DNA of 64,000 nt, from contig OZ020265.1 in NCBI GenBank assembly GCA_963971285.1, positions 5,496,270-5,560,269 of the forward strand. The letters are read 5' to 3'. This DNA comes from Astropecten irregularis (lineage: Eukaryota > Echinodermata > Asteroidea > Paxillosida > Astropectinidae). Shown piece after piece: positions 17,409-52,824 of the stretch. Numbering within the stretch: the first letter of the stretch is position 1; each line of letters begins with the position of its first letter. Below the pieces are notes generated by a model, which searched no databases, was not told the origin of the DNA, and was given only the letters and a program-made list of their open reading frames with translations. Position numbers and translations under genes: made by a program.

Positions 17409-17418
17409 GTATATAAGC
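17409..17418 (+). promoter_or_regulatory. TATA box of the Harbinger transposase
   Basis: GTATATAAGC lies about 100 bp upstream of the start codon at 17513, between the subterminal repeats and the ORF, giving a likely transcription start near 17440. Confidence 0.6.
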
Positions 17419-17512
17419 TGGATCAGAGCACATGGTCTTCCCAGTCTGTGACAGTTCTTCACCAGATCGTACGTCTTAAATATTCCTCTCAAACCTCAAC
17501 AACAACTTCACC

Positions 17513-23611: not shown

Positions 23612-23789
23612 AAGTAGCATAAAAAACGGATCGAACGCTTTTGCAAAATGCGCTTTTTTATACCTTTCTGTTAACAGACAAGCAGATGACACGTTTTGGT
23701 AAAATGCAGTTTTCTGCTTCCTGCTACCAGAAAAGTAAGTGTTACTTTTTATCCGAAACTTGCGGTACAAAAGTAGACATCTGCATTTT

Positions 23790-23975
23790 CACTTTTCTCA
23801 CTACCAGTACCAGTAAAGCAGATTGGACGTTTTTGATAAATCCACTCTTTTGTTTGTCTGCTTTCCAATAAAGCAGATTGAACGATTGTGCAGTGATTCA
23901 AAAGTGGTCATATGCTTTTCTGCTAGCAGAATCGTAGAAATAAACGTGGATAGATCCACTTTTCTGCTTTTTCCA
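23790..23975. repeat. Short tandem motif block in the foldback centre
   Basis: The motif AAGCAGATTGAACG and its variant AAGCAGATTGGACG repeat at intervals of about 60 bp, with TCCACTTTTCTGCTT-like pieces between. Related motifs lie inverted at 24170-24300. Confidence 0.5.
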
Positions 23976-25628
23976 ACAGGACAAAATGTAGGTTCGTTCA
24001 CAGCTTTTAATCATTCTCACACAGGAAATACAGATAAGCTTCAGGACTTTAAAAGCGACGTTTGTTTTTGAATGGAAGTATTTTGAGGTTATAATATTAG
24101 GTTACTGTTTGGAAGGCAGATACTTCTCAATTGGGCCCCTTCTAAGGGCCACTTTTAAACCACTGGCCCACAAGCGTTCAATCTGCTTTCTTGAAAGACA
24201 GAAAAGAAAACAAAGTGGATTTGCCAAAACGTGTCATCTGCTTTTCTGTTAACAGAAAGGTATAGAAAAGCGCCTTTTGCAAAAGCGTTCGATGTGTTTT
24301 TTATGCTTCTTGGAGAGGAAAAAAGTAGATGTCCACTTTTGAACCTCCATATTCGATCACGGGACGGTACTTGGATATTTCATACTTCATAGTTTGTTTC
24401 AGGGCGGCGTCACAGATTTGAGAATCGTTATCCAGCGGTCTTCAGTCTCAGACGTCTTCAGTCTCAGAAAGTTTCCACTCTCCTTTTTTGGGGGGAGGGG
24501 GGGGGGGGTAAAGACTGGACCATTTTCTCTTGCGTGGCACTTTTCATCATTTCGCGGCATTTTCCCGAAATACCATCAAATTACCGTTTGCGTTCAATGC
24601 GTTGCATGTGTATACATACATAATTAACATTAACGTGTAAATCAGTGCTGTGATGCAACTTTTAAGTCTTATCTACAAACCCCAAGAAAAATCATGTCTT
24701 AAATTGTGGATTTGTTGTCAGAGGTCACTAAATAAACATTTGCAAAAGGAATTATGGTTGTACACAAAAGTGTGAATAAATCGCTTATTTGCCATTAATT
24801 AGTGATGGTCTTAATTAGAAACCCCAAACATTTGTATGTCTTAAATTTCATTTTTATTCATGTGGAGTAATGTTTTATCCATAGCTGTAATCGAAATGGA
24901 TGTACGGACTCTTTTTTTATAAGTTCAATTTTAAGGTCCTAATAGGCCTATACCCTGGGTCCAAACACCCCATCTTATGTACAAACACCCCATTATTATC
25001 TACGAACACCCCCATCTTATCTACAAACCCCAGGAAAAATCATGTCTTAAATTGTGGATTTGTTGTCAGAGGCCACTAAATGATCATTTGCAAAAGGAAT
25101 TTTGGTTGTACTCAAAAGTGTGAATAAATCGCTAATTGGCCGTTAATTAGTTATGGTCTTAATTAGAAACCCCAGACATTTGTATGTCTTAAATTACATT
25201 TTTATTCATCTAGAGTAATGTTTTATCTATAGCTGTTATCAAAATTGATGTACAGACTCTTTTTATAAGTTCAATTTTGAAGGACCCAATGGGTCCAAAC
25301 ACCCCATGCCTTATGTACAAAACCCCCATATTATCTACAAACACCCCCGTCTTATCTACAAACCCCAGGAAAAATCATGTCTTAAATTGTGGATTTGTTG
25401 TCAGAGGTCACTAAATGATCATTTGCAAAAGGAATTTTGGTTGTACTCAAAAGTTTGAATAAATCGATATTTGGGGCAACTTTGGTGCCCCAGGGGGCCC
25501 AAAGCCCAGGGGTGTGCAACTTAAGACGCCCCATTCTCTCATTCGTACATTAAATCCAATAGAAATATGCACTCAAACCTTTTGTACTCAACATTATGAT
25601 TAAAACCCACCTAGCTCTCCAACTATAT

Positions 25629-28226
25629 GTGTTGCGTCTGGCCAGATGAAAGGGGCTACCTGTACATTTTATAGATGTTGTGGCGCATCCGGGAAGGGTG
25701 GGGGGGGGGGTGTTGGAAGCATGATGGGTATAGGCATGTGCAAATCCTATTATGCGTGGATATCTCAACAGTAATGAAAATTCTAAATAACTTCATAGGG
25801 CCCTTGGGTTTTTACGTGTTGGAATTGTGCTTAAAACAAACGTTTACATGGTGTTCTTGAGGTGAAGGATATGCAGGATGGTAAGAATGTGGATAAGATA
25901 TCCCTCCCCGCCAGAGACCAATAAAAGACAATGACACCATGGACCGTGTGTTGAGTGGCCTGACATAAGAGTAACGTTTATATTTGGGAAAAGTCTGTTG
26001 ACCTCCGAAGTATTATACAGTATTTAAGATAATTATTATTTTTGTTATCAATGAGGGTCCAAACGTGAAGCATTTGTGGAGGAGTACATGTATGATCCAG
26101 CAGGAAGTATACTTCCCTCGCAATGGCGATTGCTTCATTGACATTTAATTATGTATGTCCTCACTCACAAGTGAAGCAAGTATGGGAGCAAGGTAACAAC
26201 CTCTCGAGAGGAGTATAGGGGGAAGTGTCGTGGCAGTATTGGTATGCCCTTATAGGTACACTCCCCTGAAGAGTGTACCTATAAGGGCAATGTGAACATC
26301 AGAATTCTGCACCAGATGCATGCGTATTTACTGTACGTTGTAAATTAATGACCCGAAATTTCCCGATATTTGAGTATCTTTGGCTTTATAAATCAACGTT
26401 TTCTCTAAGCATGACACAGGCTGCTAAATTTGGTACGAGATGAACACGTAGGGTAAAATAGCCATGATTCGGACACCTAAGCAATTTTGGATTATTTTGA
26501 CCTTCTTAATGTTTGTTTCTCTCAACTATTTTCACTTATGAACAACAAAGTGAAGTTATTATATCCAGGTTGATATTTTATGAAAGTTTTTTGTGTCCTT
26601 GAAATGAAATTGACTCGAAAAATAACCTTAATTTTAGCCATGATTCGGACACCCGGTCCATGATTCGGACACACATGAAAAAATGCTGAAAAAAACATGC
26701 CTTGCAAAATAAAATAATGTCTCATCAATGCAGTGGGCAAATTCTTAAGTTGCCACCATTTATTTTCCCAAAAAAGTGTCATTTGACTGCTCAGAACTCA
26801 AAAAAGAAAATTGGTGCATGGACACATCCAGGACTTATTTTCAGAGTTTTTGAAGGCAATGCCCTGATAAAAACGGGCCATTTCGGCCATATCGTGAAAT
26901 TGAACTCCATTCCGTCCGTGCGCTCCCGTGCGCACCACTCTAGTGTGTACAAAAGTCAATGGCGTAGATATTAGACTCCAGCCATTGACGAAATGAACGG
27001 CAGTCAATGGAGTGGAGTGTAAATTCGGGAGATGCCGGCATTTCTTCTAAAATGGAACATACACAAGCCACAAAATTATTTTGGCATATTTTTTAGCGAG
27101 TCTGGGGGCCTTGGTAGCATAAATCAATGGAGTGTCAGAAATCATGGCACATATACCTTGGCTTCTGGACAAGGAAATTTATGCAAGTTCAAATTGGCAA
27201 CGCAGCTCTCCATAATTTTGACCTTGATGGTATATTGATGAACAGAATATACCAGTTTCATAAAAAAAATCCTGTTAAATGTAATTAATTTTCTGTGTTT
27301 TTAAATAATGCATTCTCACAACCCTATTTTTAACAGGGCTCTTAAGTTAAGGATCACACTTTTTTTTAACTTGAGGCTGCACCCCAATTTCCTATCAGAA
27401 AATGTGACATTTTATAATAGGAATTGGATCATGTAAAGTATGTGGCACCGTTGTTTAGTCTAGTAATAGGCCCTAGTGCACCTATCGGAAAGAATTCCAC
27501 TGATGACCATAATTTGTGCACAACTCTATAGAACCAACAGAGGGCGTTTTGAGCAAACTGGCTTATTTGTACAGTTTGTGGGTAAAAGAACCCTGTAAAA
27601 CTCACTTTTCAGATATTCTACGCAAGTTTTCCACACCTGAAATTGAGGTTTATCATAATTTGTATCCAATAAGTTAACTCTTGGAGGATATAATCCTTTT
27701 TCCGTAATGGTGATCAGTGGAATTCTTTCCCATTTGCATTTGCACATTTCCGAGCATCCGAATGCTTCCGAAAACGTTGCTTCCGAAGACCTGCCGAAGA
27801 TGACGTTCGTTGTGACGTCACAGGTCATTTAAATAAAGTAATAAAATCCACTTTTTGGCTCAGGTATATACTGTTTCGTATGTTTTTCAGCGTTTCCAAC
27901 CCTCTTGAAACCATTCTAAGGCGTTCCATGCGATACAATGTCAAAATGTTGACTACAACATACATATCTGGGGCATTTTTGGTCATTACCGGATTTTTTT
28001 CTACGAAAGTAATTAAGAGTGTTCTGATAAAGCCCTAGTCGTGTGCAGCGCCACCTACCGGTGGTTCCGGGAACATTGCGTCTAGGTGTCTGTGCTTGAT
28101 TCATGTATTGTGGGATTGCTAGCTGGAGATCATTGTGGGGTTGCTGCTCGTGAAGAATTTCAGCAATTTTGACGTAAGTAGATGGGACATTTCATCACGT
28201 TTTGTACATAAAATAGTGTAGATATT
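25629..28226. other. Long non-coding stretch, few landmarks
   Basis: No convincing exon on either strand. Landmarks are a perfect hairpin at 26245-26289, three copies of CCATGATTCGGACAC (about 26462, 26638, 26660), and inverted GGAAAGAATTCCACTGAT near 27487 and 27713 that may bound a small degraded MITE. Confidence 0.5.
26245..26289. repeat. Perfect 19-bp hairpin
   Basis: TGCCCTTATAGGTACACTC, loop CCCTGAA, then the exact complement GAGTGTACCTATAAGGGCA. There are no mismatches and no duplicate elsewhere in the window. Confidence 0.8.
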
Positions 28227-28234
28227 CCCATTTT

Positions 28235-28864
28235 GGGGTTAGTGTAGTTTACACCACTCGTATTATTTTCAGTATTTATTTAGCTTCTACCATAAACTAA
28301 CTCACCTGAATACGTTACTTGTGGTGTCCTCTTCAATGTCTGCAAGCTTAAATTTGTGGAAAGAGGGCAGGGCTTTGATTTTTGAGGGAAATTATGGGGT
28401 AAAACGGTATAAAGACGATGCGACATATTTTGCAGACGAAATGCTTAGCTTAGCTGTAGAAAGTCTGGTTTCCGCCCTTATTTCGATGAGCCTTGATGTG
28501 TTGGGTCTGGTACCAGACTAACTGGACCAGATCATCGGTGATTGGCTGCTGAAAAAGTTGCCTGGTAAATCCCGCTTTGTGATTGGTCGAGAGTGTCATA
28601 GACTTTACCAGAGGGAGTAAGATTATTATTTTGCACAGGTAGTTTGTGTCAAAATGGCGTAAACGCGACTGAAAAGCTGTGTTCAACTTCGCAATAATTG
28701 GGTAAGGAAACCTTCTTTTTTCACTGGAATATTGCCGAAATATGTTCATTTTTGGGTTTACAGGACCCATGAATATTTGCTTTAAGTAACAAATCTCATT
28801 TTGGAACTGTAGAAGCTAAATAAATACTGAAAATAATACGAGTGGTGTAAACTACACTAACCCC
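28235..28864. mobile_element. hAT-type MITE with exact 8-bp target duplication
   Basis: 630 bp with inverted ends of about 54 bp beginning GGGGTTAGTGTAGTTTACAC. Flanked on both sides by CCCATTTT (28227-28234 and 28865-28872), an 8-bp duplication. No transposase ORF inside. hAT is inferred from the duplication length; the terminal bases are not the usual CAG type. Confidence 0.85.
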
Positions 28865-28872
28865 CCCATTTT

Positions 28873-30195
28873 AGTATTTTCACGTGCAAAGGTTTTGTAA
28901 AAAACATTTTAGCTTGGAAATTAAACAGGGAAATTCAATCATAGCCCACAGCTACAGACGTTTCCATGTGCTTTGCTAGGCTTACAATACATTACTACAT
29001 AACATAGATAGGCTTGTGTACAGTAGTATGGTATCACCATGTGATTCTCTTCCACTTCTTATATTTTCTTCATCACAAGTTCTTTTGTACTCAAATTTAC
29101 TGCCATGGCACTTTGCTATTTTGTGACAAATGAGATATGGGTTATGGACAACATTATTAAATTGTGCATGGAATTTCAAATAGAGTTACACTATGGGTTT
29201 TATTTGACAGATCATTGGGCACTCCTTTACGATGAGTTAGAGATTGCTTTTGTTAGGTTTAACATTGTAAAGAAAAACTGGCCTTGTAGGATTTATCTCT
29301 ATTAGTTTGAGGCTACACGAAGAATTTTCAGGTAGGCCTAAATGCATCTTTTGATTGTTTTTGTTTGTTTGTTTGTTTTTGTGGTTTTTTTTGGGGGGGG
29401 GATCCGGAGGGCAGTGGGTCAGTGGATATTTAGCCATCGCCAGACAAAATTAAGTTAAAACGATAAAATATGTATTTTACCAGATTGGTCCTGAACATGC
29501 ACAGTGACTGCTTTTTGGGACTTAATCATTATTGCGATGACAAATTTGTCTGGTTCCCCACCAATATTGTTCACAAGATCAAGAGATACGAGATAGATAC
29601 GAGACCATTATTACAATTCCAAGCTTACGTATGTATTTCGCTTAAAAAAATCCCCCAGAGCCAAGAATCAGAAAAGGAAAATGCTATACTTTAATTAATA
29701 ATTTAATAATATACTATAATTATATGTTGGATTCAATTTAAAACAATAAATATTTAATTTTGTTGGACAAATAAAGGCTGTGAACTGTCAGTGACTGCCA
29801 CTCATAATGTACACACGTTATCCACTAGGCCACAGGTTTTGCACGAAATAATTACAAAGTAGGCCTACTCTTATAGTTATACAAGCCAAAAAGGGCTCCG
29901 TACCATCTAGCTGGCTAAATATTGGCTTTCTCCTTTTACCTGTCACAAAAAAATAACAGGTCTATCATATTTGGGTCCTCTCATTTGATTTCCGAAGATA
30001 ATTAAATTTAGAAAAATTAAGTGCAAGGTTCATGATATGGGGGATGCATGAGGGATGACAGTTATCTAGACCTTTTCCATTAACCCACAATCCTGTAGCA
30101 TTCTTCCAAACAATGGTTGGCTTGGGAGAATATTGTAGTCTCAAAAGTAAATCGTTGTTTCTTTTTTTTTCTTTTTAATTAATCCCGTAGTGTGT
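28873..30195. other. AT-rich non-coding stretch
   Basis: No exon, TIR element or long repeat recognised. A T-rich then G-rich run lies at 29347-29400. Several short ORFs are present but have no protein-like features. Confidence 0.5.
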
Positions 30196-30203
30196 GTCGT
30201 AAC

Positions 30204-30592
30204 TAAGGCTGTAGTTTGTATCTGGTTAACCGGTTAACCGACCGTTCAAGCGGGTAACCGGGTATATTTTCCCAGTTAGGTTAATCGAAAAGTGTTTATT
30301 TTAAGGGCCTTTTCTTTCTGAAACATATGAAGCACTTCTAGAGCACAAAATAATCATTTGAAGATTGGACCAGCAGGCTTATACAAAGCAAAAGCCAGAC
30401 ATTTTGCTACACACATGTGTGTCTACCACTGCCAAATGTCATGACAAAAATAATGTTGTCAACCAATTTCCTAAAACAAAAGACCCAAACTTACTATTTC
30501 TTTGTTTTCTTTGTTTTGAGGGTAATCGTAACCGTAACCGAAAAAACAGACGGGTAACCGGTTACAAAATTATCCGTAAACTTACAGCCCTA
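30204..30592. mobile_element. hAT-type MITE just upstream of the recombinase-like gene
   Basis: 389 bp. The ends TAAGGCTGTAG and TTACAGCCCTA with inner AACCGG motifs are a common hAT terminal pattern. Exact 8-bp target duplications GTCGTAAC lie at 30196-30203 and 30593-30600. It sits 74 bp from the predicted start codon of the next gene. Confidence 0.9.
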
Positions 30593-30665
30593 GTCGTAAC
30601 TTAAAACTCTGTCAATAAAATGAAAGCACATAATGCAAACTTGTATTCTCTTACATAGATCCACC

Positions 30666-33600
30666 ATGAAGAAGAGTAAATCGACTCATACTGACATGAA
30701 CGTGTATGGTAAAAGTCCATCATTTCAAGGTGAGCTAAAAAATGCATCAATTGTATCTAGAGAAATATTCATACGTGTTATAACATGTGTAGAGGTTATA
30801 GGTCACAAGTGCCCACACACAAATGGGTGCTTAACACAAGTATGTAAAGTTGCCCCCCTTAGGTGATAATTTTTGCTATATCTTGCTAGGAAATTCCAGA
30901 CAAGGTCAGTGGCACACATGTAAAAAAGAAAATTCCCCGGTAGGAGCCAAAAATAAAAGTCGGTCGGAAATGAGAACCATATAATTAAATAGGGATGCCC
31001 TTTAATATGCAAAATGCACTACGAACACATCATACAAAATGTCGATATGGACACATCAGCTTATGGCCTGCTCAGTTACCCTAGCTTATTTTGAACACAC
31101 CAAATGTCATTTTGTATTCAAACAAATATTGAGTGGGTTTCAATTGGGAGGAATATTATCGCTCAGTAAAATCCAGCCTGTACCATTTCAGTAAGCTTGG
31201 CCTTGTAAAACATGTAAAATGGTATACATTCCAAATTTTACCGAGTGATAATATTCCTCTCATTCCACTCTGACTACGTGTCTGAGCTACTCAATATTTT
31301 GTATAATAACACATGTTTGGAGTAGGTGTGAAAAATGCACTATTATACAAATAAATGTACATTTCTTTTGTTAAACTGTTAGGTGCACACGCATTAACTG
31401 AATAAGTTCTTAATTTAGAATTGCATGTTTATGAATACAGTTGGTGATACAGTGTGGGTGCGAGTGGAAGGCATTATGTGGCCAGGAAAAATTGAAGCCT
31501 TTGAGAGCCGGGGACGACGGTGCACCTGTGGATTTTTCAATGAAGACTCTATGTAAGTATAATGCTTCTTTACATAGGCCTATAGAAACGAGCAGGACCA
31601 AATATTGTAAAGTTTATGCATTTCAAATATTAAGAAGAAACAAAATTTTTTGAAAACCTTAAAATGAAACCAAAATTATAAACAATAAGCCTATACATGT
31701 ACATGTAGATGTTTATGTGATCTTTGAGTTAATCATGCATTTAAATGGGACAAATAATTTACAAAACATCAGAAATACCTCAGCGCTTGATTACATGTAC
31801 ATGTGGCCAAACATTTTTTTCGTCATTGGCTGCTTCCTGTTTACTATTGCAGACATGTCAGACATAATGGTCAGGTGTCACCCTTTGTGAAATTACCAGA
31901 TTCTTTCAATGATATTTAAAATATTTTCTCAACATTTCCAAAATTATATGCAGTCACATGACTCAAACCTGCTCGTTTTTGCCAAGCTTGAAAGTCTGGA
32001 AGACTGAAAAAAAAACAGGACATATTTTCATAATGTAGTTTATAAACAAGATGCTTCTCAATCCCACACAGAGTCAAAACTGTAGTGAGCAGCATAAAGA
32101 AATTTGGTCCAAATGATCAAATTCTTATTGAAGGCGGTAAAGGTACATGTAATATCAACAAGATTGTGTTGATAATTTTGTCACTTCGTGTTAATATGTT
32201 ATTATTTGAAATCCAAGTTGAATAGTTTGATTTCTTTTAAATTTCCATGTTTGCAATTTTTTAATCCATTGTTACAGTTATTGTTCTATCATTTACAATG
32301 CACTGTATTGCCATTAGAAAGACTTTTACATGTACATGTACGTATGTTCATTTTTTATATGCACCTGTACATAGATGTACATTCATGTAGATGTCCTTCT
32401 ATATTAAATTTCAAAACTTGATTTCATGTTCATTTTCAAGTTAAAAAAATGCATAGCCATTTTGAAAATTAAACAGCCAGAGCACATTATGACTGTTCAA
32501 AGAGATTAAGTCCGTTAAAAATCATGATTTCCTGAAATTAAAACAAATTTCATGATTTCAATCAGGGCTGTTTGATGTAAAATCAGGTGGCTTTTAATTT
32601 TTATATATTTTTGGTCTTTGTTATGAGTCACCAAAAAAGAATTATTCATCATAATTTTCTGCGCAGCGTTGATTACAATTGTGATTAAGGTATTTTTGTT
32701 CAAGTCTTGTAGGAGTAATCCATAAAGTTATGTTCATATTGAATGTATTCAGTAACCATCTGCCAAGTTTTGTTTATTTGGCATGGTATTTGTACATTTT
32801 GAAATTCCCACAGGGGCCACAGATTTTTTTATTTTTTTTTATTTTTTAATAATATTTTCTGAAAAAAGACAAATTAGCCCTCTCAAAGCGTTCACTATTT
32901 GAGGAATATTTGAAATTATGGAACACAGAACATGGATATTGAAGACAGATTTGCCCCATTTGTGTTCAAATAGCCAAGTTTTTACATGGTAGCACTTAAA
33001 TACATGTAACTACAAAGAACAAAACAGTAAGAAACTTTTGTTCTTATTAGTCACATAAGGGGCCACTCAAAATGTTCAATGTTTTTGAATTTCGACTTTT
33101 TTTTTAAAATGGTTTGACCCACACACCCACCCACCCACAATTTCAATTAACAAAGAAATGATTTCTCACCATGTACGTTGTACATATACATTTGATATAA
33201 ATTCAAATGCATGTAAAAATCTATAGGCCTAATGCAACACAGTATGACAAGGTGAAATCCTGATTCTTTGAAACTTTTGGACAGCATGCAAACAGGAAAC
33301 ACACACAAAACGCTCGTATGACGATGATGGATCTTTAATAATCAGGTTTTGCTCCGTCCAGAAACTCCGAAGATTTGCCGGTATATCGCACAGTTTGTCC
33401 ATAGGAGCGATGTTGATATTTACGACCGCGATCGATCGCGCAGGCAGGTAGTCTTGGTTCACGACTATGTTATATCACTCGAATGTACGAACCGATTACC
33501 CGCACTGACCCGCACGCACGTACATGTACCTAAAGGCCTCTCTGAAACATAGAGGTCCATGCTTACGTGGGTGCAGATCAGCCATACGTACATGTACGTG

Positions 33601-36600
33601 CGTGCGGGTCAGTGCGGGTAATCGGTTCGTACGTTCGAGTGATAAAACATAGTCGTGAACCAAGACTAGCAGGCAGGTAACAACATGTGCCGTGTCCAAT
33701 CCGCTCCGAAATGGATCTCCCGAGCTACTGTATGGCTACGCATGCAGTCAACCGCGTTTCCATGCACATGCATGTATTTCTATCTGCTGCATATGCCTGA
33801 ACCTAGGCTCCTAGCTCTAGCCAACATAATGCAGTCAGTTTGCTGCTGTCCGGTTAGTCTTGGATTCAAGGTGATAAACATTAATTTCACCGTTATTAAC
33901 AACTGGTGTTCAACTTTCACTGTGTGTACCGGCAGGCTTATATAAATACGCCTGGTACCCTGCTTCATTTGCGTGGCCTATTGATCATATCGCTGCAAGC
34001 GCCTAGTTTCCAAGTCTACGAGTAAAAACCACCTCCGGGTCCTTCCATGATGTTTCACACGTGCACAATAATGTCGCTGTATGGGAACATAAGTTGAAAA
34101 CGATTGCATTTTTGGAGTGTTGGTGCGGTATAGTGCGCACGCTACATGTATTTTTGAGGCAAGTCAAATACAAATTCTTAATTTTAATAGAAAAAGTTAA
34201 TTTCGATTAACAGTTTACTTCAATTGATTTCCTTGACCCACCCACCCTCTATTTCGAAAAAAAAGTCGAAATTCAAAAACATTGAAAATTTTGAGTGACC
34301 CCTATAAAGTGCCACATACTTTTTTTATATTGTGATTCTGTCAGACTAACACAATTGCCCACCACTTTACTGATGGTATACTTAATTTAAATGTGCATTT
34401 AAGGAGCCTTGGGCCTTTTTGTTGTTATACCATCTGAATTTTCTTATTAACCCTAACCAACTAATAACCATGCTTAATTCAACAAGTTTGCAGATAATTT
34501 TTATGAAGTCATGATGGCAACAGAGTAAATGAGCAAATTATAAACATTGACGTCATCATAATTTCCAGAATTTGTGATTTTTTGTTGCGGAGACTTTGTT
34601 TTCAAAACTGTTTCATTCATGACTCTAGGATGTCTATAACTTGAGTTATGTCTTCAGGAAGTTTGAAAGACAAGCTGACCTCATTTGGAGGAATCATAAA
34701 TCAAAATTGAAAAAGAACATTGAGTTTGCATACCAAACTGACTGAAAGACTGAAAGCTTTTTACACCCAAAACAACCGAATTCATAGTGACTCAATATGA
34801 TCGATTGAAACTGTGGCAAAATCTCTGTTATGTCAAACAATATGGGATATTACTATACCTCATAAATATTCATGATCTATAGCCGAATCCCAATTGGTCA
34901 ATTCACCATCACGTGTCAGTGAATATATTTGCTGATCACCAGCGAGTAGGCCGGGGAAACTGTTACACATGTAACATCTCACTGCGCAGTGTAACATCTC
35001 ACTGCGCATCCTAGTAAAAGTTTGCAGCACGCGCGTGCGCGTGACCCTCGGCCTTCATGAAGTTAATGGCTGCTCATGAACACGAACATTTTGTTGCATT
35101 TACTGATACCTATCTCGACGAAATTGTGAATATTTATGAGGTATAGTAAAACAAATATCACATTTGTATACTGTTTTTCCCATTTTCTTGAATGCATCTT
35201 TTCTAGACATGTGGAGGGTTTCCCATGCCGCATCATATTCTGTCAATGAGCAATCTTAATTCACAAAATGATTTCCATGACTGTCATAATTTTTGTTTTC
35301 CCTCTTTCTCAGAAACTCTGCAGCGAAAACTTCCACATCTTCTTTCCAAGTTTGTTCAGGATGTTGAACTGGCCAAACAGTCCATCAGTAACTCTGAACA
35401 GCCTCCACCACAAGATCATCAAGGTGAACCAGATGACGGAACAACATCCAGCTCAGTCACCTCCAAAAGGCCATCAATAGATAATCCAGATGATGCATTT
35501 GAGGAGCCTTATGGCGGAACAGCATCCAGCTCAGTCACCTCCAAAAGGCCATCAGTAGATAAACCAGGTGATGCGTTTGAGGAGCCTTATGGCGGAACAG
35601 CATCCCGCTCAGTCACTTCCAAAAGGCCATCAATAGATAAACCAGATGATGCGTTTGAGGAGCCTTATGGCGGAACAGCATCCCGCTCAGTCACCTCCAA
35701 AAGGCCATCAATAGATAAACCAGGTGATGCGTTTGAGGAGCCTTATGGCGGAACAGCATCCCGCTCAGTCACCTCCAAAAGGCCATCAATACATAAACCA
35801 GGTGATGCGTTTGAGGAGCCTTATGGCGGAACAGCATCCCGCTCAGTCACCTCCAAAAGGCCATCAATACATAAACCAGGTGATGCGTTTGAGGAGCCTT
35901 ATGGCGGAACAGCATCCAGCTCAGTCACCTCCAAAAGGCCATCAATAGATAAACCAGGTGATGCATTTGAGGAGCCTTATGGGGGAACAGCATCCAGCTC
36001 AGTCACCTCCAAAAGGCCATCAATAGATAAACCAGAAGATGCGTTTGAGGAGCCTTTAACCAGTCATTCAGTTGACTCACCAATACCCAGATCAGCCCCA
36101 CTGGAGAAGCTCTTGACAGGTCAGCATAACGATCCAACAACATCCACATTAGACACCTCTGAATTGCCCCAACCAATGGCTCACTTCGAAACCATTACAT
36201 TTAGCTTGGGAAATTCAATTAATGACTTTCTGGCTAAAGCAGAGACCCTTGATAATCAGAGAAATCTGTCATCATCAAGCAAATTAGCTCCCCAAGCTAT
36301 ACATGAAGAAGTGTCAGATAGTGAAGATGAAGCTAAATCAAAGGCTTCCATTCCAGTCCCATTACGGCTTCAGAATGTCGTGGAGTTTCTGGATGATCCA
36401 AGAAATGATCTGGATGAAGAAAGCCTAGAAGAAAATCCTAGTTCATCAAGTGATTCACAGGACAGTGATTCCAGCTATGTCCCTTTAGATTCAGATTCAA
36501 ACGCCAGTTCACATGGATGTACTCTTACTGTAAAGAAAGATCTCCTTGCGATTCCTGATTCTGGTGAATCCTCACAACATGACCTTGACCTAGATCCTGC

Positions 36601-39600
36601 TGATCAGGATCTTGATCTAGAGCCTGGCGAACATGGTCTTGATCTAGAAGCTGCCGAACATGATCTCGAGAATGAATCGGACGACCTAGATGAAGACGAT
36701 CTGCATCCAGATGGGAAGATGTGTGACAAAAAGAAGTTTGGAATCTATATCCGAAAAATAGCACTCTCTCGCACAACCAAGCTTGGTAAACGGAAGAAGC
36801 ACAGCAGAGTCTACAATACAAAACATGCATGCTTGTTTTGTTCAAAGCTTGTGACAAATGTCTCACAACATCTGCTAGCTGTCCATCGTTCAAAAGAAGA
36901 AGTCAAGAAGATATCAAAAATATCTTTTGAGGAAAATGACACACCAGCCGTGAGGAAGGAAAAAGAAAGGAATAGGAAAAAGCCCTTGGATCTTCTTCGA
37001 AATAAAGGGGATCATCTCCATAACATGAAAGTACTTCGCCGAAAGAAGGGCGAGATAATCTTGTCCCGTAGACCTAAGGGGCATTTTGATGTGTCCCACT
37101 ATGGGCCGTGTCCAAGTTGTTATGAGTGGGTGAAACTGTCGGTGCTGTTGCGACACCAGAAGGGATGTGTTGCCAAAGATGATTCCCACCCACATGCAAG
37201 AGCAAAAAAAGGAGAGTTAGTCATCCAGTCAAAGGTTCTGTCTGGGGCCATTAGCAGGGAAGCCAGTAAGTCTCTGATAAAGGAAGTCTTTCCGATCATG
37301 CAAGAAGACAAGGTAGGCCAAGAAGCTAAGGAGGATCCTGTCATCATTGCGCTTGGGAATGAGTGGATGATCCGCAACCTTGGCAATCGTGTGATGCGTA
37401 AATATTATGCATCCGGTGTCATGCGACTGGCTGCCAGATTGAAGATAGAGCTGAACAAAGTTGCTACTCCACAAGATGGCCCAGATCTGGCAAACTACCT
37501 TTCACCACAGTACTTCGATGAAGTTTTGAAAGCAGCATACATAGTGGCAAAACAAAGTGATGGTGATGATGAGGTCATGGAGTCTCCTTCAAATCTGGTG
37601 AAACTGTCTTATCATATCAAACGGCTTACCAATATCAAGTTGGCTGAAGCCTTGGCAAGTGGGAAGACTCGAGCCCGCACAGACAGCAAAGATTTCCTGC
37701 GGCTCATGAACCTGCGATTTAACACAAAGGTTGCACGCATCCTCCTAGAGGAAAGGAGATATGGAGTTCAGAAGCCACTACCACTGCCAAGTGATGTTAG
37801 AGCCTTGTCTGAATTCATTGCAAGGGAGCTGGAGGCGTTGGATGTGGATGACAAGTCCTATGCCAATTACAGTAAAACAGTAAGGCTGATCCAGACAAAA
37901 TTGATCACCTACAACAGGAGGAGGTGCGGTGAAGTTCAAGCCATGAGGTAAGTACAAAGAATTAAAAGGAATATGATGGACATGTAAAGATCATTTTATT
38001 TTCATTGGTTTGGTTTTTGCCAAACAAATTATATTCATCCTTCTTTTGGGCAATTCCACAGAATGACATTTATTTTGTAACGTGATACATGACAAGTAAT
38101 ATCAAGAGGTATACTTTTATACTGCAGCCCTTCAAGAATAATTGATCACAAACTATATGTCAAAATCACTTACAGTGTAACTTGAGTAACCATGGAATTG
38201 CCCATTTGTTTGTGAAATGTACACATTCTAGCTTTTTAATATTTACCATGAGTATTCCTTGTTTCACAGGCAAAAGGTTCACTTTATTATGATTGCTACA
38301 GGAAAATGTAGAATGCACAAATATGTTACAAGTAAACTTTTGGAGGGTTCTGCTTCCTGTTTTTCAATATATCTAGATTGTCAAGCTACCACCAGAGGTC
38401 CTCAGGCATCAATGAAGTAGAAGCAGAGTTAATGAACCTCACCAAGACTGAAAAGAAACTAGCTGAATCTCAAGACGTCATAAAGATTCGTGGAAAGGTT
38501 GGTTGAACTGCAATTAATTGGTTGTTTGAAAAAGTTGTGTTTTCTGTCAGTTGCAATATATTTTTCTTAAGCACTCATGTAAGCTTGCATAATATGGAAC
38601 TAATTGAAAAGTGAATCATTTTCCATTACAAAAGCAAAGATTTTCATATTCAAGAATGGGCTCACATTGCTGGTAGATTGAACTGCTTGTCTTTTTTGCA
38701 TGTGGATTCCTGTCATTTAGGTTTTTTATTTTTTTTTATTTATTTTTTTCTTTTTTGTGAAATAAGCTGTCTGCCCTTCAGGGATGTGAAACTTCAGATT
38801 TAAATCTGAATTCCGATTTTTTGGTTAAGATTTTAACTCAAAATTTCAGCTTTTTTGTACACCTGCTCTGTTCAAAAGTATAGGAACTTTTAAATTTCAG
38901 CTTTTTCCTTGGTATTTTCAGATTTTTTTGTGTGTGGCCACTCACATCCCTGGCCCTTTGAAAGTAGAATAGAAGTTACCGATATAAGTAGCTGCTGCAG
39001 TTATTTTAATATTCATCTTCAATCTTCTATTAGGGCGGTAGGGAAGTTCCAGTTATTGTTCCAGCAGTCGTCAAACCAGCTCTGCAGTTCATCACAAGAG
39101 CGGATGTCAGACAACATGCAGGAGTTCAGCCATCTAACCCATATGTGTTTGGTAGTTATGGTAAGCTGTGTATTTATTAAATGACTACTGCTCTTTCAGT
39201 TTAAAGCTCATCCTCTGCATTATTTGGAGTATGATCCTCAGCCATACAACATTTCTGTTTTGTTCATAAATTGAATCAGGGTTCAATTCTTTGGTATTTC
39301 TCTTCTTTGCTGGTTTTTTTCTTTTGTGGTAGAGGTGGAGGAGCATGGTTTGGACGATTTAAGTTGTGAAAGTGTTAATTAAGTAATTCAGAAGTCCATT
39401 GTTTGAATTCTGCTTCAGCCAATTTTTCTTCAGGGGGTGTTTTTATGTGGTTAACAAGTGGTGTAAAAATGTAGTTTGGCAAATATATTTTAAGGTATTT
39501 TTTGGAGACAGATTTGTTAACTACTTTAATAATGTACCTACATGTACATTAGCAGAGTGGAACAACTCATTTACACGGGAAAATTTGGTTCAAAATGTAG

Positions 39601-42247
39601 GCTTTATTTGATACTTTGATTTTGACAGTACAGAACTTTTTTGTTTTCCCAAAGGCGCTGGTGTTATTCGAGGCTACGATGCGGTAGTTTCAATTGTCGA
39701 TTCTGCAGACCTGGAGAAACCACAATTGATCAGATCATCAAACATGAGGAAGTACATGGCAACAATGACCCAGGTATTGCTTTTGTTAGTTGTATGCATG
39801 TACTCTCCATCCTTGTCACTTGGTTCTGTTGCAAGCAGTCCTTGTTCGTGACAAGTCAATCTCTAAGCAGTCTGAATTTTTCTGTTTGAATGCAATCAGG
39901 CAGTAGTTTGACTGAAATATGAACATCTCTAGGAAAGATTGTTTTGTCCTTTCCAAACGTGATGTAAAGCACTGTATACTCAGTGGTTTGTGGGAAAAAT
40001 TCAAAGGCTTACTCTGGCAGAGCTCGGGCATCACACGCGGAAAGGGCAAAACAAAACATTAAAATTAAATTCTTGATATGTGTAGGCTTATTTTGAAGAC
40101 TTTGAATTTGTATTGTTAAAGCAATTGACACTTGTATTTTCATTCATAGTCCTTTGACATGAGCGAGCAACAGATGGAATGGGTATGCGACCATTTGGGC
40201 CACTCACTTAACATTCACCGACAGCACTACAGAGCAATGTCAAGTGTGCTAGAAAGGGTGGAGATTGCCAAGGTGCTTCTTATACAGGACCAAAATTTGG
40301 TGGGGAGATACCACGGAAAACGCCTGGACGAGATACAACTAGAAGGTAAATTGGAATTAGATATCGCTAATTCCTCCAATGGAGCAATGGTTTTAAAAAT
40401 AGGAATGGCACTAAACTGTGAAATTATTCCTTCTGACCAACTCTCATTCTGGAGAAAATAATAAAAGGTTGTTTTCCAAATTTTGTCAAGGGATGTATTT
40501 TTGGAAATTTTCATTTTTAGTTGTTTGTAATGGGAAGAATCTATAAATAAATGGTCCGCGCAAACATTGATAATGGGCACATGCATGTGTGATTTCTGTG
40601 ATTAATCAGTTCAGTGTGTGACATCGCTTAGCTGCAATCAGGTGAATTAGAACATGTCCTTGTTGCTGGTATTTTGGTTACATTAAAAAAAATGACTGCA
40701 TTTCGTAATTGAAATTAGGATCATAGAATACTTTTTGGAATACGCAACGTTTACAAAGCTGACCCTTCATCAGGATAGTTGTTTGGTGCCCGTCCTTACA
40801 TTTGTTGCTTCAAATAAAAAAATATAAAAAATGCAAAATTTACAAAATGTTCTACACTGCGTTTAATGTAAGAAAAAATAGCTACTCTTGTTCTCCTTTG
40901 GTATTATTTGATTTGGACTTTCAACTGGTTTGCTTTGTGGGAAACTGAATTTATCTTATTAGGTGGTTTTAAATAATCCTGACATGTGCGAGTGCATCTA
41001 GTAATAAGTGACAAAAACATGTTGTTGTTTTTTAGAGCTAGTGTACAACGCAGAAAATACAAGCCAAGCTGGGCCCTCTGCTGGAATCTCTGAAGATGTG
41101 CCCATGGCTAGCCATGAAGAACCAGTGGAAGAACCAGACTTCATCCCTATGGATGAAGACTTTGAAGATGAAGAAGTCTGTAAGGAAAATTTGTTTGTTT
41201 TTTAGTTTTAGTTTCAAAAGCCGAGAAAGCCGAGATGTTGTTGGGGGATATTGACTCTTATTATGATCTTTTCAAACACGACCCACTTTTTGCCAATCTG
41301 CATTCCCTGATATTTATCAATGAAAAGTATACTTTTCACATTCCAATCGTTCACATGTACCAGATTGTGACGCAAATATAGTGTGGAAATGTAATTGATG
41401 CTTACTTGTACAGAGGTTTAGGTTGTGCATCTTCCATGGATCTTGTCATAGTTGAAATAGTCTACTTGGATGTCAACATATATGTATATTACTCTAGTTT
41501 AAAACTGCAAAATGTTTAGAGATGGCAGGAAATAATTTTAACAAGCATTTTCTTATTAATTTCAGGACAAATTTGTTGCTTGTGAAAGTTGCTTAAACAT
41601 TTAAGTACTGTAAATGTGATGTCCCAAGAGCTAGACTGGTTCCCAGTAACGCCCATGTGCACATCACACATTTGCCCCACATATGGTTATTTATCATGTT
41701 CTGGGCCACATTTCTACTCGACCGGTTATAAATTACTCCCAACCATATTACACACTCACATGGCAGGCTCTCCACCATTGTGAATAGTAAAACTGTCCCA
41801 GGTCTTTTTGAATGTATTTTTCCAGATCAAAGTTTGAGTTAAACCAGACACAACATGACAAACTTTTCTTGTGGTGAAGAAATGCAGAAGTCCAGATAGT
41901 TAACCGACTAAAGTGAACTGCCCTATATATACCATGCAGGGCTCAACACATTCGCTGTATTCCTTGTATTATTTGGGGCTTTATTTTTCCACTGTTTTGT
42001 AGGCACAAAGAAGAAAGCACAACGACGCCCTCCATTGGACAGGCATCGATGGACAGCAGAAGAGATCCAAGAAGTGAAAGAGATTTTTCATCACTTCTTT
42101 GATTCAAATAAAACACCTGGCCAAACTGCTGTCCAGAAGGGGATGGCACTAAGCAAGAAACGGGGAGGGTCACTTTGGAAGCTACCTGCTTCAAAAATAA
42201 AGAAGAAGATTTCATGGTTGAGGCTGCACCCTCCAGCAGACCTTTAA
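30666..42247 (+). CDS. PWWP-like / zinc-finger / tyrosine-recombinase-like / SANT-like protein (10 coding exons)
   Basis: Coding exons 30666-30708, 31441-31552, 32072-32142, 35313-37947, 38377-38497, 39034-39160, 39655-39773, 40150-40345, 41036-41179 and 42003-42247 all have GT-AG borders and matching phases, giving about 1,270 residues without a stop. The start context is CCACCATGA. Residues about 15-50 (GDTVWVRVEGIMWPGKI) look like a PWWP domain, a chromatin reader fold. Exon 4 has eight 26-residue repeats, an acidic region, and CxxC...H motifs near 581-600 and 674-693. From about residue 700 it resembles a Crypton-like tyrosine recombinase: box-I-like NRRRCGEV (about 942), IRGKGGREVPV, R1067, and LGHSLNIHRQHY with H1094 and Y1103. 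The usual box-II histidine before R1067 is not seen. The C-terminus (RHRWTAEEIQEV) is SANT/Myb-like. It could be a mobile-element recombinase or a domesticated gene. An alternative donor for exon 3 at 32137 also keeps frame. Confidence 0.82.
33058..34303. mobile_element. TIR element in intron 3 of the recombinase-like gene
   Basis: 1,246 bp with inverted ends of about 47 bp (inner part CAATGTTTTTGAATTTCGAC) and flanking ATA on both sides. No transposase. It contains the 90-bp-arm palindrome at 33432-33677. Confidence 0.7.
33432..33677. repeat. Large near-perfect palindrome
   Basis: Arms of about 90 bp around a loop of about 55 bp, pairing for example GTCTTGGTTCACGACTATG with CATAGTCGTGAACCAAGAC and TACGAACCGATTACCCGCAC with its complement. 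It would extrude as a cruciform or fold in RNA. Confidence 0.8.
34850..35149. mobile_element. 300-bp MITE in intron 3
   Basis: Inverted ends TTACTATACCTCATAAATA and its complement at 35149. No clear target duplication. The interior has two direct copies of GTAACATCTCACTGCGCA near 34970-35010. Confidence 0.6.
35436..36056 (+). repeat. Coding minisatellite, 8 x 78 bp
   Basis: Eight in-frame 26-residue units of the form TASSSVTSKRPSIDK followed by PGDAFEEPYGG. The nucleotide units are nearly identical, differing at a few codons (S/R, D/H, I/V), which points to recent expansion. Confidence 0.92.
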
Positions 42248-42310
42248 ACACATTAAACACTTTAAACACATCAGTATACATGTATAGCATTCTATTTCTC
42301 CCATGCTCAG

Positions 42311-43120
42311 TGATCCATGAAGCATTTTGATTTGCATGGAGCATTCTGCTTTGTGCTTGGGATAACATGGGTGATCCTCCAGTGATCCATGAAGCATTTT
42401 GATATGCATGGAGCATTCTGTTTTGTGCTTGGGATAACATGGGTGATCCTCCAGTGATCCATGAAGCATTTTGATATGCATGGAGCATTCTGCTTTGTGC
42501 TTGGGATAACATGGGGTGATCCTCCAGTGATCCATGAAGCATTTTGATATGCATGGAGCATTCTGCTTTGTGCTTGGGATAACATGGGTGATCCTCCAGT
42601 GATCCATGAAGCATTTTGATTTGTATGGAGCATTCTGCTTTGTGCTTGGGATAACATGGGGTGATCCTCCAGTGATCCATGAAGCATTTTGATATGCATG
42701 GAGCATTCTGCTTTGTGCTTGGGATAACATGGGTGATCCTCCAGTGATCCATGAAGCATTTTGATATGCATGGAGCATTCTGCTTTGTGCTTGGGATAAC
42801 ATGGGTGATCCTCCAGTGATCCATGAAGCATTTTGATATGCATGGAGCATTCTGCTTTGTGCTTGGGATAACATGGGTGATCCTCCAGTGATCCATGAAG
42901 CATTTTGATATGCATGGAGCATTCTGCTTTGTGCTTGGGATAACATGGGTGATCCTCCAGTGATCCATGAAGCATTTTGATATGCATGGAGCATTCTGCT
43001 TTGTGCTTGGGATAACATGGGTGATCCTCCAGTGATCCATGAAGCATTTTGATATGCATGGAGCATTCTGCTTTGTGCTTGGGATAACATGGGTGATCCT
43101 CCAGTGATCCATGAAGCATT
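42311..43120. repeat. 72-bp minisatellite, block 1 (about 11 units)
   Basis: Unit begins TGATCCATGAAGCATTTTGA and includes CTTTGTGCTTGGGATAACAT. Units are 72 or 73 bp and over 95% alike by eye. It starts 64 bp after the stop codon of the recombinase-like gene. All three minus-strand frames are open because 72 is a multiple of three. Confidence 0.95.
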
Positions 43121-43226
43121 CTATTTTCCCTTCGCGAGAGAAAAAATGCTTCACCGATAACTTGGGAGGCTAGATTTACTACACCGCGTGAAGCAGTCAA
43201 TGTTGTTTTATTACACAGATTCTACT
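43120..43226. repeat. Flank block duplicated at 44318-44420
   Basis: The sequence from gcattctattttccctt through gaagcagtcaatgttg and tttattacac follows both 72-bp blocks, so array plus flank was duplicated as a unit. Confidence 0.85.
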
Positions 43227-43340
43227 TGATTTTAAGCGATTATGCATAAATTTACTTGCACTTTTCCAAACTACCCTTCCACTTAATATTCTAACTTACC
43301 TCTTTACACTAGTGCTTGAGAATAATTAATACACACAAAT

Positions 43341-43723
43341 TAAGTTTTACCAAAAAAAGGAGTTTATTTGAAAACAAAAATATGGTTTCCCTGCCAACAA
43401 GTTCACAAAAAAGGAACGTTGTTTGAAGTTTTTCAAAGCTTAAATTTTGAAAGTTAAGTTTTACATAAAAAAGAGTTTATTTGAAAACAAAAATATAGTT
43501 TCCCTGCCAACAAGTTCATAGAAAGGGAACGTTGTTTGAAGTTTTTCAAAGCTTGAATTTTGAAAGTTAAATTTTACATAAAAAAGAGTTTATTTGAAAA
43601 CAAAAATATAGTTTCCCTGCCAACAAGTTCACAGAAAGGGAACGTTGTTTGAAGTTTTTCAACTATTTGAAGTCAAGGTTTTGAAAGTTCTGTTTTACAT
43701 AAAAAGATTCATTTGAAAAATCA
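43341..43723. repeat. Tandem repeat of about 114 bp (3+ units)
   Basis: Units start TAAGTTTTAC at 43341, 43455 and about 43568, with a diverged fourth at 43689; the shared core is tttccctgccaacaagttca. A partial copy recurs at 44425-44515. Confidence 0.85.
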
Positions 43724-44316
43724 CCTCCAGTGATCCATGAAGCATTTTGATATGCATGGAGCATTCTGCTTTGTGCTTGGGATAACATGGGGTGATCCTC
43801 CAGTGATCTATGAAGCATTTTGATATGCATGGAGCATTCTGCTTTGTGCTTGGGATAACATGGGTGATCCTCCAGTGATCCATGAAGCATTTTGATATGC
43901 ATGGAGCATTCTGCTTTGTGCTTGGGATAACATGGGTGATCCTCCAGTGATCCATGAAGCATTTTGATTTGCATGGAGCATTCTGCTTTGTGCTTGGGAT
44001 AACATGGGTGATCCTCCAGTGATCCATGAAGCATTTTGATATGCATGGAGCATTCTGCTTTGTGCTTGGGATAACATGGGTGATCCTCCAGTGATCAATG
44101 AAGCATTTTGATATGCATGGAGCATTCTGCTTTGTGCTTGGGATAACATGGGTGATCCTCCAGTGATCCATGAAGCATTTTGATTTGTATGGAGCATTCT
44201 GCTTTGTGCTTGGGATAACATGGGTGATCCTCCAGTGATCCATGAAGCATTTTGATTTGTATGGAGCATTCTGCTTTGTGCTTGGGATAACATGGGGTGA
44301 TCCTCCAGTGATCCAA
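43724..44316. repeat. 72-bp minisatellite, block 2 (about 8 units)
   Basis: Same unit as block 1, separated from it by 0.6 kb of other repeats. Variants with GATTTGTATGG instead of GATATGCATGG occur in both blocks, showing exchange or duplication between them. Confidence 0.95.
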
Positions 44317-44317
44317 G

Positions 44318-44420
44318 CATTCTATTTTCCCTTTGCAAGAGAAAAAAAAATGCTTCACCGGTAATCTGGGAGGCTAGATTGACTACACCGGTTGAAGCAG
44401 TCAATGTTGTTTTATTACAC
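44318..44420. repeat. Second copy of the array flank block
   Basis: Duplicate of 43120-43226 with a few substitutions, again directly after a 72-bp array. Confidence 0.85.
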
Positions 44421-44545
44421 CTCGTTGTTTGAAGTTTTTCAACTATGTGAAGTCAAGGTTTTGAAAGTTTGGTTTTACATAAAAAGATTCATTTGAAAAA
44501 AAATACAGTTTCCCTCATGTCTTTCATTACTTTTGTTTTAATTGA

Positions 44546-45203
44546 TTGCTTTATGGACATGTACTTGTATATGCAACATGCCCCCAGTGTTATGGACAAA
44601 ACAACCCTCAATGTACAGACACGTGCTTGTATAGGCAACATGCCCCCAGTGTTATAGGTAAAACAACCCTCAATGTACAGACACGTGCTTGTATATGCAA
44701 CATGCCCCCAGTGTTATAGGTAAAACAACCCTCAATGTACAGACACGTGCTTGTATATGCAACATGCCCCCAGTGTTATAGGTAAAACAACCCTCAATGT
44801 ACAGACACGTGCTTGTATATGCAACATGCCCCCAGTGTTATGGTCAAAACAACCCTCAACGTACAGACACGTGCTTGTATATATGCAACATGCCCCCAGT
44901 GTTATAGACAAAACAACCCTCAATGTACAGACACGTGCTTGTATATGCAACATGCCCCCAGTGTTATAGACAAAACAACCCTCAACGTACAGACACGTGC
45001 TTGTATATGCAACATGCCGCCAGTGTTATAGGTAAAACAACCCTCAATGTACAGACATGTACAGTACTTGTATATGCAACATGCCCCCAGTGTTATAGAC
45101 AAAACAACCCTCAATGTACAGACACGTGCTTGTATAGGCAACATGCCCCCAGTGTTATAGACAAAACAACCCTCAATGTACAGACACGTGCTTGTATAGG
45201 CAA
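44546..45203. repeat. 62-bp minisatellite, part 1 (about 10 units)
   Basis: Unit contains CAACATGCCCCCAGTGTTAT, ACAAAACAACCCTCAATG and TACAGACACGTGCTTGTA. Interrupted at 45204 by the long-TIR element and continued at 48201. Confidence 0.95.
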
Positions 45204-48200
45204 GTCCGTGGGCCGTGAGGCCAAATTCGCTTTAGTTTTTGAGTTACGTGACCATCATCACCGAATTTGTTCCCACTTGGCATGGATGTAGATCTGACAT
45301 TACTGAACAAGAATTGATTTGTTCCCACGTCCAATTTGTGTTCACTAAAGAGAAATTTGCGATAGAAAATCGTCAAATTTTATGTACAGAAAAAACATAA
45401 GAATAAACAGCGCCCTCAATCGGTAGACAGTAATTATCTACATAATAATATAGGTTTTCCCGGTCATTTTCGGCAAATGAGCGGACAATTTAAACGCTGC
45501 GTCATTCCATTTCGCGTGAAACTGCAAGGCACCTCAAAATAGTCATTCGATTTCATTTTATGTGCAAGCATTTGTTCACAAGGGTCAGGCGATTAAATAG
45601 AATCGCCTTTCAATTAAACATTCCATTCAAACAGCATTCAAATTCGCAACGGCTTTTGGCAGCGTGCGCTTAGTCATTCGAATTCGATTTGGGGCAGGCA
45701 TTTCTGTGAATTGTTCAGCAAATTTAGCGTTCTGTCTGAAATTATGAATGTACCGCAAGACTAAAAAGTGTATAGAATGGTTCACTTCTTGTTTGGAAAC
45801 CACTTATGTGATGTCCCCTGACGACAATTGTTTGTAATTGAAAAATCCTCGAAAATAATGGCAGATTTCGGTCGCTGTACGAGAGAATATCTAATGTTGA
45901 CGGTTGATTGATGCATTCGAATGATTTAGATTACATTGAGCTTGCAGTCAATTTGAACATCAACACCTTGATTTTCAATACACATCCATTGCACCAATTA
46001 ATCCTCTCTTGAGAATAAACAAATAACAAATCAAAGAAATATAGAAATTCATGGAAAGGGAAAATGAAACAAGATACAAAGAAAAACAACAGGTGTAAAA
46101 GGGTTTGCATTTGTTTACAACGTATTTGAGATCCGGACGAAGAGAGAGAGGTTGGTCGGAGGAGGGGCTATTCATTTCAAAATGGATGATGAGATGCGAC
46201 ACCATTGCATACACTGCAATAAAGGGGTTTGCATTTGTTTGCTCATTTTGCGTAATTGGTTGTCTCAAAACGAAAACGTAAGTAACGATCTGGTATAAAT
46301 CGTTGTTTGCGGTTACTCTGCTAAATTGAATGCCGATTTTGCATGGCTAAACTGAACGACAGTTGAATTTAATTGAATGCAATGCTATATAAATACGGAT
46401 GCATCAAAGTGAAATCGAGTGACGGTTTCAACCGAGGAGGCAAAATCACGTCAACACGAATGCGTGAAAATGAAATTGGCCGCTCATTTGCCGAAAATGA
46501 CCGGGAAAACCTATACTATAGGAACTGCATACCCTTGCTAATTTTATTCCCGATGTAAAGACCCTTATACATGATTGGAAACTGATCAAACTCAACGTAA
46601 TTATTTCTAGGGACATTTTATTTGTCGTTTTAATTATGGGAAAATTAGGTGAATGGTGGATGGAAAATATGACACGTGTTTTTGAAGATGTTTCTCCCAG
46701 CAAATTTCTAAATGATGAGGAAGTAGTAATAAACTGCTGCAAATTGCTCATCAACCAAAATAAGAGCCTAAAATAATCATGGACCGAGTTGACCTGAAAC
46801 TTTCTTGGGAATGCCTGACGTTTTGAACCTACCAGAATATTTAATCTAAATAAAATTACAATAAAAATATTTGATGACAAAGAAAACAAAACAATTATCA
46901 CAATGAAGTTGAGATTTCAATATAGCTGCATACATGACTTTATTGCCACAAAGGAAATTTCAAGCCACACACACTATATGATCTCACTTGATTTTGCTGT
47001 TAAAATATTTCGTTCCAAAATGCTAATTATAAGATGTATATTTCTTTTTTGGAAACACTAACGGAAATATCTTGTCACGCATGATAAAAACTACAGTATT
47101 CTTTATATTTTATAAGAAAAGAATTGACTAAGTTTTTCAATAATATTCTCTTGAGACTCAGATGGCCGATTAAGCTTAACCTTTCACAGGGGTATCATTT
47201 CATGTGTACCCATGATGGATCAGACAGTGAAAGTGACAGTGTGAAGTGAAAGTTCATGTACTCTTTTTTACCCTTTGCAATAATATATTTTACTTTTCAC
47301 CCTACAAGCAGCTCATTGCAAAAGCACACATAGCCAATGTATCCTAAGAAAATATATTATTTGGGGTATATTTAGTGTTATGAGCAAGATTATGTTATTA
47401 TCATAATTGTTTATAATAAACAATTTTAACATCCTTCGTTGGAATTTCAGTCATATTTTTATTAAATTCTTTATCATAAATGTAATGTTTGTTTAGTGGT
47501 AAAGACTATTGTATGGAGCCCATCACAAAATGAAGTGGTGAAATCTCTGTTTTCGGAACAAATTTAAAGTCATAATAATAATTGAACAAAATGCTATAAA
47601 TTGTACAAGACAGTGTAGGGCCCGTCTTTTGTGTAAGACCATTGTTTTGCATAATAAATTATCATTGTTCGTGGTGGAAATTCTACATTTCAAAACAACA
47701 GTCATTAGAATAATTTTCCAGAGTGTTTTCAAAAACCGACTCTCATACATAACAATGCCAAATTGCGACAGCAGTTTGCTGGGAGCAACATCTTCAGAAA
47801 CATGTGTCATATTTTCCATTCAGGCATTCACCTAACTATCTTTTAATTAAAACGACAATTAAAATGTACCTAGAAATAATTACGTTGAAGTTTGATCAGT
47901 TTCCAATCATGTAAAAGGTTTTACATCGGGAATAAAATTAGAACGGGTATGCAGTTCCAATAGTATTATTATGTAGATAATTACTTTCTACCGGTTGAGG
48001 GCGCCGTTTATTCTTATGTTTTTTCTGTACGTAAAATTTGACGATTTTCTATCGCAAATTTCTCTTTAGTAAACACAAATTGGACGTGGGAACAAATCAA
48101 TTCTTGTTCAGTAATGTCAGATCTACATCCATGCCAAGTGGGAACAAATTCGGTGATGATGGTCACGAAACGAGCGAATAAAAGGCCACGGCCCACGGAC
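45204..48200. mobile_element. 3-kb long-TIR element nested in the 62-bp array
   Basis: Ends GTCCGTGGGCC and GGCCCACGGAC. Inverted arms total about 450 bp: left 45204-45450 plus 46514-46715, right about 47755-48200. The left arm is split by the element at 45451-46513. It lies exactly between two parts of the 62-bp array. The flanks suggest at most a 2-bp target duplication. No coding capacity recognised; a degenerate copy of the dispersed MITE family lies near 47070-47240. Confidence 0.75.
45451..46513. mobile_element. 1.06-kb TA-flanked non-autonomous element
   Basis: Inverted ends TAGGTTTTCCCGGTCATTTT and its complement (arms about 35 bp), with TA on each side (45449-45450 and 46514-46515). 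The uninterrupted right arm of the host element shows the empty site. A TA duplication fits Tc1/mariner-type integration. No transposase. Confidence 0.8.
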
Positions 48201-52810: not shown

Positions 52811-52824
52811 CCCCCCTCGCCACT

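Follow-up and report, generated by a model that had tools for sequence, protein, structure and literature searches.

A ten-exon sea star gene with a PWWP-like head, a tyrosine-recombinase-like core and a helical tail

Structure of the gene

We analysed a stretch of 64,000 nucleotides from the sea star Astropecten irregularis (assembly GCA_963971285.1, contig OZ020265.1, positions 5,496,270 to 5,560,269 of the forward strand; hereafter the window), which carries on its + strand, at 30666-42247, a gene whose ten coding exons we rebuilt from the sequence. All nine introns are of the GT-AG type, and the joined frame encodes 1,275 amino acids followed by a single terminal stop. The encoded parts are, in order, a PWWP-like head, a variable acidic linker, CCHH and CCHC zinc fingers, a helical DNA-gripping region, a catalytic domain and a homeodomain/Myb-like tail. 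These are distributed over the exons as follows:

30666..30729, + strand: coding exon 1, residues 1-22, with a GT donor
31441..31552, + strand: coding exon 2, start of the PWWP-like domain (GDTVWVRVEGIMWPGKIE), with Pfam and solved-structure matches
32072..32136, + strand: coding exon 3, continuation of the PWWP-like domain, placed by splice score and by an alignment running through to the oyster head
35313..37947, + strand: coding exon 4, encoding the end of the PWWP-like domain, the acidic linker (where the in-frame 78-bp repeats lie), both zinc fingers, the helical region and Arg I (R951)
35433..36056, + strand: in-frame minisatellite in the exon 4 linker, 78 bp x 8.0, 96% matches
38377..38497, + strand: coding exon 5, residues 959-999, with K999 as the final codon
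39034..39160, + strand: coding exon 6, rebuilt join, aligned to relatives
39655..39773, + strand: coding exon 7, containing Arg II (R1073)
40150..40345, + strand: coding exon 8, containing H1099 and Y1108
41036..41179, + strand: coding exon 9, acidic linker, its 3' join without conserved alignment
42003..42247, + strand: coding exon 10, encoding the helical, homeodomain/Myb-like tail and ending in the stop codon

An initial annotation had described an intact ten-exon gene of 1,270 residues, and in our reconstruction the open frame held while the length did not. Exon 3 was taken as 32072-32136 (65 nt), since a 50-nt alternative at 32093-32142 was lower on a crude splice score; the shorter version would fit the earlier count, although that it was the version used then is a guess. 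A possible extra exon at 41.2 kb was left out, its phase, judged by hand, not fitting.

In an alignment to the relatives P0001, P0002, P0003 and P0023, homology extends over the joins at residues 959, 1000, 1042, 1082 and 1147; small shared gap columns adjoin the joins at 1042, 1082 and 1147, and P0023 alone has an insertion at 1082. The same alignment has no alignable homology at residue 1195, the acidic stretch where exons 9 and 10 meet. Comparison of the window head with that of the Crassostrea gigas protein P0007 gave a score of 91, which none of 2000 shuffles reached (mean 25.6, standard deviation 4.5, maximum 49). As it covers exons 2 and 3 and reaches into the beginning of exon 4, this alignment supports the small exons.

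Exon 3 and the join of exons 9 and 10 are supported by reading phase, splice signals and a limited degree of conservation, which leaves some room for an artefactual model in which exons of neighbouring genes were strung together. We regard such an artefact as extremely improbable, however, since homology extends over most joins, the head aligns across exons 2-4 to an oyster head joined to the same core, and the domain order is identical in C. gigas annotations.

Core, head and tail of the protein

When residues 560-1150 (591 amino acids) were used as a query, 20 database proteins were retrieved at E <= 0.001 from 7994 candidates scored, the best at 4.4e-184, and a sea cucumber relative showed 49-50% identity across the whole query region. 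The predicted structure of a 48%-identical relative has the tyrosine recombinase/topoisomerase IB catalytic fold; a structure lacking the recombinase fold, one of two results that the initial annotation had named as overturning it, was not observed. A search of viral predicted structures yielded two matches at E <= 0.001, of which a phage integrase ranks first and the second is unnamed.

The recombinase landmarks proposed earlier are present, with their numbering shifted by five or six residues. The motif NRRRCGEV corresponds to residues 948-955 and contains Arg I (R951), followed by K999, R1073, H1099 and Y1108, the last two being nine residues apart. Among 47 database proteins, 33 span all five of these positions and 28 of the 33 keep every residue, a count that includes isoforms (five of LOC117690845 and two of LOC109620100) and hence does not represent 33 independent cases. 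The five exceptions are fish chromodomain fusions, all with K->Q and H->R replacements and two with the Tyr column lost. The predicted fold in the relative and the conserved residues bear out the earlier reading of a tyrosine-recombinase core.

Standard profile collections returned little for this region. A Pfam phage-integrase match was found in none of the 14 family members scanned, and DUF3504 was absent both from the 19 families that the 14 members matched at E <= 10 and from the matches of the window core at E <= 5, in sequence-against-profile searches whose HMMER filters drop most weak matches. The PHROGs families matched by one or more of the 14 members number 19; none carries the name of an integrase, and almost all are of unknown function. 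By sequence alone the core had no match in the PDB up to E 10, and pattern scans of viral contigs (one pattern) and of genome contigs (two patterns) detected no viral or prokaryotic relative. On sequence and modelling evidence, the core appears to belong to an animal tyrosine recombinase family outside Pfam coverage, and it looks like a competent enzyme.

The Pfam PWWP profile (PF00855) matched the head in two scans that scored 15.1 and 16.0 bits and so fell short of the curated gathering score of 25.6, with matches spanning profile positions 1-89 and 1-90 of 93. A sequence search of solved structures with the window head matched the DNMT3B PWWP domain at E 0.0053, and a two-row profile that included the oyster head matched DNMT3B at E 0.0033 and LD23804p at 0.011, with PHF20 and HDGF weaker; the oyster head alone had no Pfam PWWP match. 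Although formally below threshold, a PWWP-like identity of the head, as suggested in the initial annotation, is well supported at the sequence level by the Pfam coverage, the DNMT3B match and the alignment to the oyster head. Four relatives, P0004, P0022, P0013 and P0012, start with a stretch resembling the last helix of this head: the numbers of 2000 shuffles that reached their observed scores were 0, 0, 0 and 6, respectively, against the oyster head, and 20, 6, 204 and 3 against the window head. As 204 shuffles reach its score, P0013 is not a match to the window head.

A conserved helical tail lies C-terminal of the recombinase core and weakly resembles a homeodomain/Myb-like small helical DNA-binding fold; the SANT-like tail of the initial annotation finds weak support in this Myb/homeodomain-like form.

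Relatives and their chromatin domains

Relatives occur among oysters, scallops, sea cucumbers and fish and in a weevil; several of these proteins carry other chromatin domains at the N-terminus. A PWWP-like head on the same core is carried by the oyster proteins P0007-P0010 and P0043-P0047, so that a fusion for which the initial annotation had named no precedent is not unique to the sea star. These oyster PWWP-recombinases (for example C. gigas LOC117690845) share the head, a repeat-rich linker, the zinc fingers, the five-residue core and a similar C-terminal tail with the window protein, but differ in their 45% identity over the searched region, in their linker repeats and in having a head without a Pfam PWWP match. 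The N-terminal linkers of oyster, scallop and cod relatives also contain repeats, which differ from the 78-bp minisatellite of the window.

SET heads are present in P0002 (Holothuria) and P0019 (Oryzias), the latter with additional C1/PHD-like fingers; in both the core is alike, with all five residues, whereas the head differs. The fish chromodomain fusions comprise P0034, P0035, P0037 and P0038, which are named M-phase phosphoprotein 8 (MPP8), and the unnamed P0040, the chromodomain having been assigned by a Pfam run for P0034 and P0035 and from precomputed annotation for P0037, P0038 and P0040. In these MPP8-type proteins the zinc fingers and core likewise follow a chromatin reader, but the core is catalytically degenerate. 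MPP8 itself belongs to the HUSH silencing machinery.

A 25-row tree pairs the window protein with P0005 (100/100); in the same tree, 16 rows form a set (99/100) that contains the window protein and oyster rows with PWWP-like heads as well as the SET-headed P0002. Three named C. gigas genes combine the same head, core and tail; so does the unnamed Magallana gigas protein P0044, which may be one of the three. The best high-scoring segment pairs of P0044, P0045 and P0046 against P0007 contain 12, 15 and 9 mismatches over 1,429, 1,427 and 1,610 columns, respectively, and identity to P0007 is 92.9-95.0% when repeat-number gaps are counted. Pecten has four named genes, which lie on separate branches of the tree.

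A broader scenario, which we find possible but doubtful, is that tyrosine-recombinase elements occurring across animals repeatedly swap chromatin heads (PWWP, SET and the MPP8 chromodomain) and steer their insertion by them, and that a dead copy was built into fish MPP8. Chromodomains are thought to steer some retrotransposons. If our reading of the family is correct, animals carry tyrosine recombinases that Pfam models miss, some of which naturally join a DNA recombinase to a chromatin reader or writer, and the steering of recombinase-type transposons by chromatin domains becomes testable; the fish MPP8 fusions with their decayed core would then permit a comparison of intact with host-captured copies. 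Our literature search, judged by the titles and abstract beginnings of part of the matches and with Repbase and most subscription papers outside its scope, produced no description of the window family, nothing joining MPHOSPH8 with Crypton, and nothing on PWWP with transposase and domain fusion or on Crypton with tyrosine recombinase and PWWP. Among the matches, PMC11244446 brings together tyrosine recombinase and PWWP, and two papers bring together tyrosine recombinase, SET domain, transposon and Crypton.

Mobile element or host gene

The protein appears to act in the manner of a tyrosine recombinase; in principle, its nearest counterparts are those of Crypton-type DNA elements. With CryptonA and CryptonI it shares a tyrosine recombinase as the presumed mobiliser, and terminal repeats were not found at the window gene; unlike them, the gene is split into ten exons and encodes a chromatin-reader head as well as a helical C-terminal tail, and it further differs from Crypton in that all 14 members scanned lack DUF3504 and phage-integrase matches. 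According to PMC3212892, animal Cryptons have neither a C-terminal domain nor terminal repeats. Because of that reported lack of a C-terminal domain, together with the missing DUF3504 match, the family should not be filed as Crypton.

We lean, with modest confidence, towards a mobile, Crypton-like DNA element of low copy number, whose recombinase this gene would encode. Support for mobility comes from the several near-identical C. gigas genes, from the four Pecten genes in separate branches, and from the restriction of catalytic decay, among site-spanning proteins, to the chromodomain fusions. We infer a cycle in which the zinc fingers and the tail would recognise the element ends, and the core would cut DNA through a covalent link to Y1108 and then rejoin it; the element would be excised as a circle and inserted afterwards, and docking of the complex on chromatin by the PWWP head would bias the choice of insertion site.

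Several observations weigh against this interpretation. The ten exons look gene-like, as does the position of intron 4, which seems, from the available sequences, to be common to the family because 11 database open reading frames (ORFs), apparently predicted as intron-less, stop at its start in the window gene or shortly past it (exactly there in 8 of the 11). Comparison of the flanks 26500-30665 and 42248-46500 for exact matches of at least 13 nucleotides gave one 13-mer direct match and no inverted match, so that terminal repeats around the gene were not found, and a second copy of the gene is absent from the 64-kb window. The copies seen in oysters may be allelic, may have arisen by tandem duplication or may have been annotated from different assemblies. 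In the tree, rows P0024 and P0028 were mis-trimmed, the branch of P0024 is absurd and several branches are weak, and its deep branches are not readable. The relative's model has an overall predicted local distance difference test score (pLDDT) of 69.6, with values of 64-78 over residues 641-700, which contain the His and Tyr, and the set of five residues in the window protein (Arg I, Lys, Arg II, His and the Tyr nucleophile) was assigned by alignment and not by three-dimensional geometry. Finally, the His of the classic R-H-R-Y set, which in classic tyrosine recombinases stands three residues before Arg II, is absent: the window protein has Ser at this position, and the 33 spanning database proteins have Ser or Thr in 32 cases, Val in one and His in none. 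Topoisomerase IB likewise does without that His.

A less probable, though still plausible, account is that an old recombinase was captured by an animal lineage and retained, immobile, as an enzyme or chromatin regulator of the host. The ten exons with one intron position common to the family, the 1,275 intact codons and the fish precedent of MPP8-type proteins with a degenerate form of the same core all fit a host gene, as do the published precedents of DUF3504 genes and the lack of terminal repeats, even though PMC3212892 reports none for animal Cryptons either. Set against this account are the several near-identical genes in C. gigas and the retention of the catalytic residues in all 28 spanning proteins other than the chromodomain fusions, whereas every domesticated DUF3504 gene is described as lacking the catalytic site (PMC3212892). 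The weights that we give to a mobile element and to a host gene are judgements.

The initial annotation had also raised the idea that the gene mobilises a large element. Starship captains are tyrosine recombinases that act as mobilisers, and a tyrosine recombinase gene in a repeat-rich stretch would suit the captain of an element that, like these fungal Starships, is giant and carries cargo. That the window gene is such a captain is nonetheless very unlikely: no cargo element, shared edges or terminal repeats emerged from the flank comparison above, and the recognised neighbours are other transposons and minisatellites.

The proposed location of the gene inside an intron of a Harbinger transposon was likewise not supported. 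A complete ORF at 17480-18811, with a DDE_Tnp_4 match, encodes the Harbinger transposase about 12 kb upstream of the gene, and nothing was found that ties the transposase to sequence past 42 kb: no 14-mer inverted match links 16601-17480 with 19001-52000, and crude Myb patterns, which provide weak evidence, revealed no distant Harbinger exon. Part of an apparent Harbinger partner gene lies on the - strand at 19685-20437, its remainder past 20110 having been read by eye; within 19685-20110, Pfam returned no match to Myb.

One further feature lies within the gene's span:

33058..34303, no strand assigned: stretch of 1.2 kb within intron 3, bounded by terminal inverted repeats of 53 nt (92%)

This is probably a separate small transposon outside the gene proper, and would represent a later insertion. 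Downstream, two 72-bp minisatellite arrays (98% matches) occupy 42308-43120, beginning about 60 bp past the stop codon of the gene, and 43724-44315, with a 113-bp array in between. The segment at 45243-48171 ends in 208-nt inverted repeats (97%) and is flanked by 62-bp minisatellite arrays. A Gypsy-type retrotransposon, with ORFs at 51719-57030, adjoins a 62-bp minisatellite, and its insertion is probably recent, since its 554-bp terminal repeats (50625-51178 and 58074-58627) are identical. Upstream of the gene, 21249-25625 forms a large inverted repeat with arms of 650 nt that are 99% complementary and with internal repeats about 340 bp apart.

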